Virus record (IMG/VR): IMGVR_UViG_3300030329_003377
Location: 1-27,812 of that record
Length of the DNA stretch: 27,812 nucleotides
Strand: one strand, 5' to 3'
Origin: a virus
Shown: one piece after another, positions 1,948-27,766 of the stretch
Numbering within the stretch: position 1 is the first letter of the stretch
How the letters are laid out: each line of letters starts with the position of its first letter
Notes under the pieces: model-generated
What the model was told of the DNA's origin: nothing
Seen by the model: only the letters and a program-made list of their open reading frames with translations
The model's database searches: none
Position numbers and translations under genes: made by a program

Positions 1948-4514
1948 TGCCACATAAGCCTGGACATCCAGAGGAAAATCCTAATTTATGGAAAGAGATT
2001 AGCCAAGATATAGGTAGTTTTAGTGGTTTTGGAAATATGTCTGGAATAAATATAGGGTCACAGTATAGTTCTATTATAGGTGAAGGTGGCAATATAATGC
2101 AGGCTCATGGCAATTTAAATGCTCCTAATACTGTAGATGCATTACCCTCTATACCTGCCATGTCAAATGTTGGAGCTAATTCTTTTACTGGTATTGTTAA
2201 TTGGAATTCAATACCTGGTGGATTTCAACCATTGCCACAGACAGCTGGTAGGAGTAAAAAACTATATCAAATATCTCAGTTCCATGGAGGCATTAATCAA
2301 AAGTCATCTCCAAGAGATATATCTGACAATGAATGTCAAGAGGCTACAAATGTGACAGTTTCAAATATTGGAAGAATAAAAATTCTTGGCGATCTACATA
2401 CTGAAACAAGTACAGGGCTTACAGCAACAGCTCTTAAAGATTCAGACAATCCAAGTGCTGGATATGGTTGGTTTGTATTTAAAAGTGGATATTCTCTAGC
2501 TTCAACTCCAGTTGCTGGAGATTTCACAATAAATGTTACACAAGATGGTGATGATGTGCAACTTGCTGACAATGGTTCTCCTTCAACACTTGCATTAGAT
2601 ATTGCAGATGCTGATACTTTTGTTGCTCCTGTATATTATGCTGCTGGTAATGGGTTTTATGCATGTGATGCTAATTTTGCACATGGTGAGGAAAGGAAAT
2701 CTGCAATACTGGTAAACAGAGAAGATCAAAATGAAACTGTTAGTGGTTGGGTTGCAGGTATTCCTCTAATTAATTCTCCTACTACTGATAATGAGGCTGC
2801 AACGCCTGCTGGCGAGGTTGGCATTCAAGATGCAGATGTAGCTGCTTCAACGCATGGGGCACTAGAGGTCTGTATAGTTCCTGGAGGATTAGTAGGGGCA
2901 GATTCTGGAGGTACTGGCACTTGGGATGGAGAATATTTTTTCTATGTTTCTTGGCTATTTGATGGAGGTGTTGAAACTGGTCTTACTGCTATTGGAACTG
3001 ACACATTTTCAAATGGAACATTACGCCTTAATCCTAGCCTATGCCATACAAACGCAGCTCCACTTGGTGGAGATAAGAGAATTGAAGGTGCAAGAATATA
3101 TTTTAAAGCATCTGGAGGTACAGAAAGATATTTACTTGCAGAACTCAGTCTAGCTGATGGTGTTAAAGGTGCTCTTGATTCTACTTTTACTCCTTGGACT
3201 ATAAATACAAATGTTGGAAGCGATGCAAATGAAGATGTTCATGATTTAGATGATCCTGTTAGATTGGTATTTGAAAATCCTCCAGAAGTATATACATATG
3301 CTTCTTTAAATGGCTATTATGCAAATGAAGCTTATAGTAAATCTCCAGATTTAGATCAAGATGATACAACAGGTGGGACTCAAACTGCTGGCCCAACAGC
3401 ACATGATGTTAGATATAAAACAGCAACAGTTGGGGCACAAGGAGTTGTATTTATTGGGAATGTTAAGTTTAGGGGTGAGCATAAGCCAGACTTGATGATG
3501 TATTCAATGCCTGGTAAACCTGGAGTATTCCCTAAGTTTAACTTTTTTGATTCACCTTCTTCTGATGGTATGCCAATTACAGCACTTGTATCTTTTCAAG
3601 ATACAATATTGCAGTTTAAAGAAAATGCAATGTATGCAATTAATATTTCAAATCCAGCACAGTTTTATGCTGAAGCAGCATTTAGAGATTGTGGAGTATC
3701 TAATCCTTGTCAAGTATTTACAACTGCATTTGGTGTAATATTTGCAAATAAGAATGGATGTTTTATATATGATGGTCAAAAGGTAATATCACTTACAGGT
3801 GGTAAATTCAATATTGCTGACTGGGGATTGTCTGAAACTTCTTCAATAGCTGCTGATGGTACTGGTGTTCCTTGTGTTGGATATGATCCACGTTCACAAA
3901 GTATCATTGTACTTAAAGATATTGGTCACGAATCTGTTGATGATGGTGCTTGGGTATATAGTATGTTAACACAATCTTGGACAGAAGGAATTGATTTTAT
4001 TGAAAATGCAGATGATGATACTCATTCTAATTTTCAAATATCTCCAAATGGATATTTAAGTATAATTCAATATGATTCAAGTGATCCACCAGAAGCTCCA
4101 TTTACTTACAATATTGGAGAAGCAGCTAGTAATGTTCAAACAATTACATATTGGACTAAAGATTTTGACCTTGGGTTACCATCTCAAACTAAAAAGTTAT
4201 TTAAAATTTACATAACATATAAAGGTAAAGCAGATGCACTTACTGTGGCATATGGTGTTGATGGAGAAACTGACACAAGTGATGTTTATCATTTTGCTAC
4301 AGATGCCTATGGAGGGACTACTGATACTACGCCTTTATTAGATAAAAGTAGTGCTGCAAATTTAGAAAGTTGGCATGTAGCAACGCTATACCCTGATGAT
4401 TCTGCTGAAGGAAAAGATTGGAAAAGTATATCATTATATTTTAATGGGGCAGTTAGTGAAAGCTTTGAAATAAATGATATCTCAATATTATATAGAGTGA
4501 GACCAATTAAATAA
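1947..4514 (+). CDS. Large tail / head-tail stabilisation protein, beta-propeller type
   Basis: This 855-residue protein is acidic and rich in Gly, Asn, Thr and Asp. Residues 1-100 are a low-complexity Gly/Asn arm. At 105-150 comes KKLYQISQFHGGINQKSSPR, then a segment of the type DNE-x-x-x-ATNV and IGRIKILGD. That opening is typical of podoviral tail or stabilisation proteins of the P22 gp10 / T7 tail-tube-B kind: a basic start, a GGIN turn, a conserved Asn-Val strand and a Gly turn. The remainder has many repeated short strand-turn motifs, as in a beta-propeller. It would sit in the tail below the portal. It is followed without gap by the tail fibre gene (start overlaps stop). Function is from pattern and position; no catalytic motif is seen. 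Confidence 0.6.
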   Translation: MPHKPGHPEENPNLWKEISQDIGSFSGFGNMSGINIGSQYSSIIGEGGNIMQAHGNLNAPNTVDALPSIPAMSNVGANSFTGIVNWNSIPGGFQPLPQTAGRSKKLYQISQFHGGINQKSSPRDISDNECQEATNVTVSNIGRIKILGDLHTETSTGLTATALKDSDNPSAGYGWFVFKSGYSLASTPVAGDFTINVTQDGDDVQLADNGSPSTLALDIADADTFVAPVYYAAGNGFYACDANFAHGEERKSAILVNREDQNETVSGWVAGIPLINSPTTDNEAATPAGEVGIQDADVAASTHGALEVCIVPGGLVGADSGGTGTWDGEYFFYVSWLFDGGVETGLTAIGTDTFSNGTLRLNPSLCHTNAAPLGGDKRIEGARIYFKASGGTERYLLAELSLADGVKGALDSTFTPWTINTNVGSDANEDVHDLDDPVRLVFENPPEVYTYASLNGYYANEAYSKSPDLDQDDTTGGTQTAGPTAHDVRYKTATVGAQGVVFIGNVKFRGEHKPDLMMYSMPGKPGVFPKFNFFDSPSSDGMPITALVSFQDTILQFKENAMYAINISNPAQFYAEAAFRDCGVSNPCQVFTTAFGVIFANKNGCFIYDGQKVISLTGGKFNIADWGLSETSSIAADGTGVPCVGYDPRSQSIIVLKDIGHESVDDGAWVYSMLTQSWTEGIDFIENADDDTHSNFQISPNGYLSIIQYDSSDPPEAPFTYNIGEAASNVQTITYWTKDFDLGLPSQTKKLFKIYITYKGKADALTVAYGVDGETDTSDVYHFATDAYGGTTDTTPLLDKSSAANLESWHVATLYPDDSAEGKDWKSISLYFNGAVSESFEINDISILYRVRPIK

Positions 4515-23557: not shown

Positions 23558-24670
23558 TTAAATATAAGTCAATAGTTTTTCTGCTATTGCTTGTACGACT
23601 GGTACTGATACTGCATTACCCATCTGTTTATACCTTTGTGTATCAGAATTGCCTTCTGTCCATCCATCAGGGAATCCCTGGAGTCTTTCACATTCAAGTG
23701 GAGTAAGCCTTCTTATTGTTGATTCTATTCTTACCATACTATCTTTTTGAGCACTATTTATTGCATTAGCCATATTATCATCTCTTTCTTCAATTGTAGC
23801 CTCTTGTCCTCTATATTTCCTGGTTCTATATGCTACACCTTTAACATCATATAAACCAGTTTTAGCACCCATACCACCACCATCTTTAATAGTCCTAGCA
23901 TTACCACTTGGATCATATACTCTTGTAGCCTCTGCATCTTTACCAATTACGCCTATTTGTTTTAAGCCAATGTAACTCATGTGTTTTGCAGTTCCATGAG
24001 CATGAGCAGTTGTTATTGTTCGTGTATAGTCACTGACTTGTGATGTCTTTTGAGTTTGGCTACTGCTTTCGATGAGAGGAAATATTTTGGGTCTACGCTC
24101 TCCTCTAATATGTCCCACAAAGTATACTCGCTCTCTATTTTGTGGGATAAACCACCTTGTATTAAGTAGTTCCCATTGACCATCATACCCAATGTCGGCA
24201 ATCTCTTTAAGGCAGATTTTGAAGTCTTGCCCACCACCACTTGAGAGGAGTCCTTTGACATTTTCAAAGATAATATATTTGGGTTTTTTAGCCCTAATGA
24301 TTCTAATTGCTTCAAAAAATAATCCACTTCGTGAACCTTTAAGTCCTTTTCGCTTTCCAGCTTGTGAAAGATCTTGACAAGGGAATCCAAAAGTGACGAG
24401 ATCGAGGTTTGGGAGTTCATCTTCATTGATATCTGTAATTGATCCAAGTTCTTTTGCATCTTTAAATCTCCTTTTATATGTTTGTGTTGAGTATTTATCT
24501 ATTTCACTGAAGGCATGGTAGTCAAACTTAAACCCTGCATTTAAGAGTCCAAGAGTGAACCCACCTACACCACTAAATAAATCAAGATAGTTTATTTTCA
24601 TTTGTTCGCAATCACAATGTTGTGGTAATACTCCATTACCATCACCACAATTACAATTATTATTTTTCAT
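23558..24670 (-). CDS. DNA (cytosine-5) methyltransferase, orphan
   Basis: The 370-residue protein has all main C5-MTase motifs: I LDLFSGVGGFTLG at 29-41, IV GFPCQDLS at 95-102 with catalytic C98, VI ENVKG at 136-140, VIII QNRERVYFVG at 177-186, IX RRLTPLECERLQGFPDGW, and X QMGNAVSVPVVQ near the end. The target-recognition region lies between VIII and IX; target not predictable. The N-terminal 23 residues, CNCGDGNGVLPQHCDCEQ in the middle, are an extra Cys-rich arm; the AAAGGAG before the first ATG supports including it. No restriction enzyme is seen, so it probably protects phage DNA from host restriction. A second ORF lies inside it in the +1 frame. Confidence 0.93.
   Translation of the reverse strand: MKNNNCNCGDGNGVLPQHCDCEQMKINYLDLFSGVGGFTLGLLNAGFKFDYHAFSEIDKYSTQTYKRRFKDAKELGSITDINEDELPNLDLVTFGFPCQDLSQAGKRKGLKGSRSGLFFEAIRIIRAKKPKYIIFENVKGLLSSGGGQDFKICLKEIADIGYDGQWELLNTRWFIPQNRERVYFVGHIRGERRPKIFPLIESSSQTQKTSQVSDYTRTITTAHAHGTAKHMSYIGLKQIGVIGKDAEATRVYDPSGNARTIKDGGGMGAKTGLYDVKGVAYRTRKYRGQEATIEERDDNMANAINSAQKDSMVRIESTIRRLTPLECERLQGFPDGWTEGNSDTQRYKQMGNAVSVPVVQAIAEKLLTYI
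24013..24459 (-). CDS. Internal overlapping ORF within the methyltransferase gene (+1 frame)
   Basis: 148 codons on the same strand as the methyltransferase, shifted by +1. It starts at an ATG preceded by AAAAGGAG with 8 bases between, a full ribosome binding site. The second half reads NGNYLIQGGLSHK, then ESEYTLWDILEESVDPKYFL and SSKAVAKLKR. From memory this matches the pattern S-L-x-D-I-L-E-x-x-V-x-x-K-Y-F-L-S-x-K-A-x-x-x-L of standalone proteins next to or after cytosine methyltransferases in phages and prophages. The host frame here encodes motifs IV-VIII, so both frames look constrained. It may be an overprinted gene or a chance frame that mirrors the methyltransferase coding pattern. 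Confidence 0.45.
   Translation of the reverse strand: MQKNLDQLQISMKMNSQTSISSLLDSLVKIFHKLESEKDLKVHEVDYFLKQLESLGLKNPNILSLKMSKDSSQVVVGKTSKSALKRLPTLGMMVNGNYLIQGGLSHKIESEYTLWDILEESVDPKYFLSSKAVAKLKRHHKSVTIHEQ
24468..24475 (-). promoter_or_regulatory. Shine-Dalgarno inside the methyltransferase gene
   Basis: Minus-strand AAAAGGAG within the codons for YKRRFKD, 8 bases before the out-of-frame ATG of the internal 148-codon ORF. In the main frame it has no role. It is what makes internal initiation believable. Confidence 0.5.
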
Positions 24671-26998: not shown

Positions 26999-27766
26999 TT
27001 AGTAAGTTAATGAAGGATTATTTTTACTTATTGCAAAGCCTTCAATTAATGCGTTATTTAATTTCTTTTTAGATCCTTTAAATTTTAATCCTACGACTAC
27101 AGATTTATTGCCTATTTTTTCATCTATTCGTAAGTCTGTTTCATCTCCATTTATTACGATATACTCAATTCCTTTGATATTGATTGTTTTAGGCAATTTC
27201 TCAAATACTATGGCTACATTCATGCCATTTAATAAAGCCTCACTTGTATCCTCAAAATTAGCCTTATGATGTGAATAAGTTAATTGATAGTTCCCTGGAA
27301 CTTTTCTATTTGACAACTTGGAATAGTCATAAAATGTAATATTAGGGAAAAGCTCAAATATGTTTTTTCCATCTGTTATTATGTCATTTTCCCATCTAAT
27401 ATCTGAATATGCATTAAGTCTAAAAGTTGGTTTTAAGCCTTTCTTTTTAGCTAGTTTTACAGCGTTATTTATTTCAATTACTAATCTTTCAAGAAATGCT
27501 TGTTTATCTAGAAAATAACTTAAAGTTTTATTAATTCTACTTTCAATAACACTTGAATGAATTTGAGCAAAGCCATTATAACCAACACAGCATGAAGAGC
27601 AATTTGATTTATTTTTATTATCTTCATTTTCTGTTAATTTGTTAGCCATTGGACATACATTGAACCCACTTAAATCGCTATGTGCTAGATTTAAGCTTGA
27701 TGTGTAATACCCTAATTTACTATTCTTTTTTAATTTATGATTTATTTCACCCTTTGATAATAACAT
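26999..27766 (-). CDS. GP88-like Cys-rich phage protein (255 aa)
   Basis: Similar in pattern to the phage GP88 family: an opening with NHKLKKNSKLGYYTSSLNLA, Cys at 38 (NVCPMAN) and a cluster C56-S-S-C59-C60 (NCSSCCVGYNG), RLNAYSDIRWEN at 116-127, PNITFYDYSKLSNR at 141-154, and a C-terminal strand-rich part (VVVGLKFKGSKKK). The Cys cluster with the following R-x-N-x-x-S-D and FYDYSK segments suggests a metal or iron-sulfur site in an alpha/beta fold. Function of the family is unknown to me. Start at ATG with AAAGGAT in the repeated leader. Confidence 0.6.
   Translation of the reverse strand: MLLSKGEINHKLKKNSKLGYYTSSLNLAHSDLSGFNVCPMANKLTENEDNKNKSNCSSCCVGYNGFAQIHSSVIESRINKTLSYFLDKQAFLERLVIEINNAVKLAKKKGLKPTFRLNAYSDIRWENDIITDGKNIFELFPNITFYDYSKLSNRKVPGNYQLTYSHHKANFEDTSEALLNGMNVAIVFEKLPKTINIKGIEYIVINGDETDLRIDEKIGNKSVVVGLKFKGSKKKLNNALIEGFAISKNNPSLTY

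Follow-up and report, generated by a model that had tools for sequence, protein, structure and literature searches.

The window analysed here is a 27,812-nt viral contig (IMG/VR record IMGVR_UViG_3300030329_003377), with matches to a DnaB-like helicase, a Sak single-strand annealing protein, a Cas4-like exonuclease and a tail spike. On its minus strand, a gene for a 370-aa C5-cytosine methyltransferase (MTase; hereafter alpha) contains a second, 148-codon open reading frame (ORF; its product, beta) in the +1 frame relative to the MTase gene. The features of the locus are the following:

23558 to 24670, minus strand: C5-cytosine MTase gene (alpha, 370 aa; PF00145, E=1e-78), with motifs I to X in the main frame, including IV (PCQ) and VI (ENV), but without the DILE..KYFLS segment of the small domain
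24013 to 24459, minus strand: overlapping +1-frame gene (beta, 148 aa, ATG start; phrog_16143, E=3e-16)
24468 to 24475, minus strand: AAAAGGAG, Shine-Dalgarno-like site 8 nt before the beta ATG
24034 to 24120, minus strand: part of beta homologous to the start of the small domain of single-chain MTases (LWDILEESVDPKYFLSSKAVAKLKRHHKS)
24110 to 24145, minus strand: motif VIII of alpha (PQNRERVYFVGH), partly the same DNA as the beta segment
23669 to 23713, minus strand: motif IX of alpha (RRLTPLECERLQGFP), kept in the main frame

The inner ORF lies at an offset of 211 nt (1 mod 3) and overlaps MTase codons 71 to 219, which encode motifs IV to VIII, and the bases immediately upstream of its ATG read CATATAAAAGGAGATTTAAAG. 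An earlier note, made from the sequence alone, had described this ORF and its ribosome binding site, and that observation is confirmed here. Its interpretation is only partly supported: overprinting is borne out, whereas a stand-alone phage family with the pattern DILE..V..KYFLS.KA, whose origin the note proposed to explain as a frame-shifted copy of MTase coding sequence, is not supported.

To evaluate whether the ORF could be an accident of MTase codon usage and conserved motifs, we compared it with synonymous-codon shuffles of the same gene. The real stop-free +1 stretch covers 161 codons against a mean of 54 in the shuffles, with 0 of 1000 as long, while the +2 frame is unremarkable (p=0.66); the +1 frame is also open beyond synonymous shuffles in most homologs. 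Among 221 distinct MTases, mostly viral, the 178 that carry the conserved segment in +1 have 0.11 stops between motifs IV and VIII against 4.11 expected, compared with 6.15 against 6.70 in the +2 frame. To remove the retrieval bias, the count was repeated only with loci fetched by MTase-frame queries, of which 92 of 93 have no stop (0.01 against 3.87 expected).

Divergence at fourfold-degenerate sites of the MTase frame was then measured upstream of, inside and downstream of the ORF in four codon-aligned groups. The values were 0.57/0.24/0.58 in the window class (13 sequences), 0.43/0.12/0.45 in a metagenomic class named after its locus L029 (64 sequences), 0.63/0.32/0.62 in the Streptococcus phage MM1 class (46 sequences) and 0.45/0.21/0.52 in the phage P1 dmt class (6 sequences). 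In contrast, a control class of 24 MTases without the ORF showed no dip (0.48/0.52/0.56). In the L029 class, first positions of MTase codons over the ORF, which are third positions of the +1 frame, vary more than third positions (0.186 against 0.158), the mark of a strongly constrained +1 frame. Furthermore, the +1 peptides of all 12 relatives in the window class resemble that of the window far more than synonymous shuffles allow (z 5.9 to 8.9), with 0 or 1 stops against 4 to 8. The dip starts near the internal start and ends near the +1 stop. An AGGAG-type site 8 nt before the ATG is kept in most of the window class, and the MM1 class has its own AGGAG and ATG. One exception to the open frame is locus L001 (541 to 1035), whose +1 ORF has a single in-frame stop although the peptide is otherwise conserved, owing to either a sequencing error or early decay.

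It is important to consider that conserved MTase motifs alone give some +1 similarity, as shuffled genes keep about 41 to 57 identical +1 residues, and that the tblastn hits of the ORF carry MTase annotation. Nevertheless, the shuffle tests, the dips in four groups, their absence from the control and the homology of +1 products to main-frame proteins (below) contradict a shadow ORF, which we consider very improbable. The conditions that had been named beforehand as refuting overprinting, namely homologs that break the +1 frame or lack the ribosome binding site and database hits arising only from mis-called frames, were examined and did not hold. Synonymous-site constraint by itself cannot tell coding from constraint on DNA or RNA structure or binding sites. 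However, stops are avoided in +1 and not in +2, and the +1 peptide is homologous to protein sequence elsewhere, so that this alternative is also contradicted and is the least probable of those considered.

The +1 products match phrog_16143, a 139-aa family labelled "DNA methyltransferase", in 19 of 19 relatives, the window product covering positions 5 to 134 of 139. Streptococcus phage MM1 has the same arrangement, as its ORF14 lies in the +1 frame of the MTase ORF13 and matches phrog_16143 at 1e-83; these entries are labelled only "putative methyltransferase" or "DNA methyltransferase", and no overlap or subunit role is described in the records that we read. Pfam and NCBIfam gave no match to the +1 product of the window, and its profile found none among PDB sequences. 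A stand-alone family with the conserved C-terminal pattern LSDILEENVDQKYFLSEKA was not found by tblastn in phages and plasmids, by two scans of viral contigs and one of genome contigs with +1 products, or by phrog_16143 in 200 genomes, where only weak hits with stops were obtained. All nine annotated hit records that we opened lie at offset 1 mod 3 within an MTase gene. The pattern instead has two sources: the few overlapping ORFs that were annotated (MM1 ORF14, phrog_16143), and the homologous segment that single-chain MTases carry in their own main frame. Thus, it is a piece of the MTase small domain and not an independent family shown to be born as a frame-shifted copy. A tree of 63 rows needs two changes of the segment's frame and does not settle which frame came first, the sampled single-frame MTases being mostly one clade.

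In single-chain MTases of viral contigs (loci L014, L018, L032 and relatives), the segment lies in the main frame after motif VIII, and it aligns with M.HhaI from about residue 194 on. The small target-recognition domain of M.HhaI begins in this region. A profile built only from these main-frame segments hits the +1 frame of the window at E=1.5e-8 and that of locus L002 at 4.7e-16, and 100 of 215 +1 frames at E<1e-3, against 0 of 645 shuffled peptides and 0 of 214 +2 frames. This search is the independent check on the classification of the 221 MTases, for which the segment profile was built from both kinds of sequence. In that classification, the segment is in +1 in 178, in the main frame in 36, in both in none and in neither in 7; in 214 of 221, therefore, it is in exactly one of the two frames.

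More of the recognition domain can be carried in the second frame at other MTase loci. In L277 and L008, the +1 product continues into small-domain sequence (69% over 54 aa and 52% over 65 aa, respectively), and in L022 it runs through motifs IX-X while alpha stops after motif VIII. In L021 (2492 to 3523) and L012 (787 to 2250), an N-terminal extension of the +1 product is homologous to a module that lies in the main frame, after motif VIII, in the single-chain MTases L257 and L255 (L021: 60% identity over 118 aa), and frame 0 of alpha at that place looks like filler. In the L029 group (L029 and L061 to L140), apparent three-piece MTases are found, in which alpha ends before motif IX, the +1 ORF is nested and motifs IX-X sit in a further downstream ORF, mostly in the +1 frame.

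These results suggest, as the most likely explanation, that beta is translated by internal initiation, from its own Shine-Dalgarno site and ATG, on the MTase mRNA, and that it folds onto alpha and supplies in trans the opening of the small, DNA-recognizing domain that alpha lacks. The active enzyme would then be an alpha-beta complex made from one stretch of DNA read twice. The sequence analysis itself establishes the conservation and coding selection of the +1 frame, the homology of its C-terminal part to main-frame small-domain sequence and the mutual exclusivity of the two arrangements in this sample, whereas the production of the protein, its binding to alpha and the dependence of methylation on it are inferred. 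Alpha of the window has all ten motifs and might work alone, and M.HhaI-type small domains tolerate variation, so the segment might be dispensable. AlphaFold2 predictions agree with the model without proving it. The catalytic domain of alpha is predicted with confidence and is M.HhaI-like (Z 29.5), while most of residues 202 to 317, in the small domain, score below 50, although this may only reflect a shallow, variable alignment in a prediction made without a single-chain control. Beta alone is confident mainly in the shared segment.

A separate role for beta, for example, in regulating the MTase or acting against host defense, with the small-domain resemblance reflecting only ancestry, is possible but unlikely. 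The N-terminal two-thirds of beta resemble nothing else known and alpha keeps motifs I to X in the window, which would fit such a role. However, every relative examined lies inside an MTase gene, the segment occupies a single frame in nearly all of the MTases classified, and other betas carry recognition modules or motifs IX-X. Ribosomal frameshifting that joins the +1 segment to alpha appears still less likely. The run of the L022 +1 frame into motifs IX-X could favor it, but the segment overlaps motif VIII in the DNA, so that a fusion would lose this motif, and the constraint begins near an internal ATG with a Shine-Dalgarno-like site.

C5-MTases made of two polypeptides are already known, namely M.AquI and M.EcoHK31I (YGGCCR) (PMC3404938). 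M.AquI also has the recognition part on a second polypeptide, but it is cut in the variable region into I-VIII and IX-X parts (PMC3404938), whereas here the second gene is nested in the first. In M.EcoHK31I, the small chain has motif IX and alpha has motifs I-VIII, X and the TRD (PMC3404938), while in the window alpha keeps motif IX (RRLTPLECERLQGFP) and beta has the start of the small domain. The smaller chain of M.EcoHK31I is encoded in another frame within the gene of the larger one, an arrangement also seen in the window. Compared with M.HhaI-type single-chain enzymes, alpha has the same predicted catalytic fold, but the segment that they carry in line is here in a second frame. A phage family with the pattern WPTPTA.D led us to phrog_1008, whose hit in L290 (minus strand) is another +1 ORF, of 347 aa, overlapping an MTase-like ORF over 1034 nt, with no stops against 4.0 expected (p=0.014). 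L290 fits the published EcoHK31I division, as its MTase-like chain ends in a motif X-like GYGDAI and its +1 ORF has a motif IX-like sequence (motifs assigned by eye). A second phrog_1008 hit, L289, looks like the two frames joined by a frameshift. Literature searches for overlapping MTase genes in phages found nothing on point.

The hidden gene occurs in many phages. A tblastn search with the window product found 181 phage records, 143 of them Streptococcus phages. Phage P1 dmt (AF234172; L053, considered together with the P1-like plasmids L282 to L287) carries a 163-codon +1 ORF (2728 to 3216) with the KYFLSSKACAGILRR segment, with a synonymous-site dip strongest at codons 160 to 260; this ORF is not annotated as a gene in the P1 record. 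The P1 +1 ORF has matches in 531 plasmid records. On the contrary, fourteen well-known genomes contain no phrog_16143 match although ten have C5-MTases, so that, with bacterial chromosomes sampled only thinly, this looks like a feature of mobile-element MTases. A broader reading, which we consider likely, is that a large class of phage C5-MTases, including P1 Dmt, annotated as one polypeptide, is encoded by two reading frames over the same DNA, one giving the catalytic chain and the other a nested subunit with part of the DNA-recognition domain, and that recognition modules can sit in either frame.

Overlapping genes in double-stranded DNA phages are rarely demonstrated, and this one occurs in phages of very different hosts, with two products that seem to be parts of one enzyme. 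Annotation usually drops the second gene, so enzymes cloned as alpha alone with altered codons could wrongly be called inactive. The finding also bears on how recognition domains are exchanged, since in L012 and L021 a recognition module that single-chain enzymes carry in line is written in the second frame. In Mycobacterium phage Schatzie (L057, 1908 to 3431), a gene is annotated as "DNA methylase; coding region not determined; unable to determine intron boundaries", a difficulty that the family of overlapping and split MTases, plus inserted HNH genes, may explain. Elsewhere in the window, positions 26999 to 27766 (minus strand) encode a 255-aa protein matching PF17338 (Gene product 88, function unknown) at 7.6e-31.
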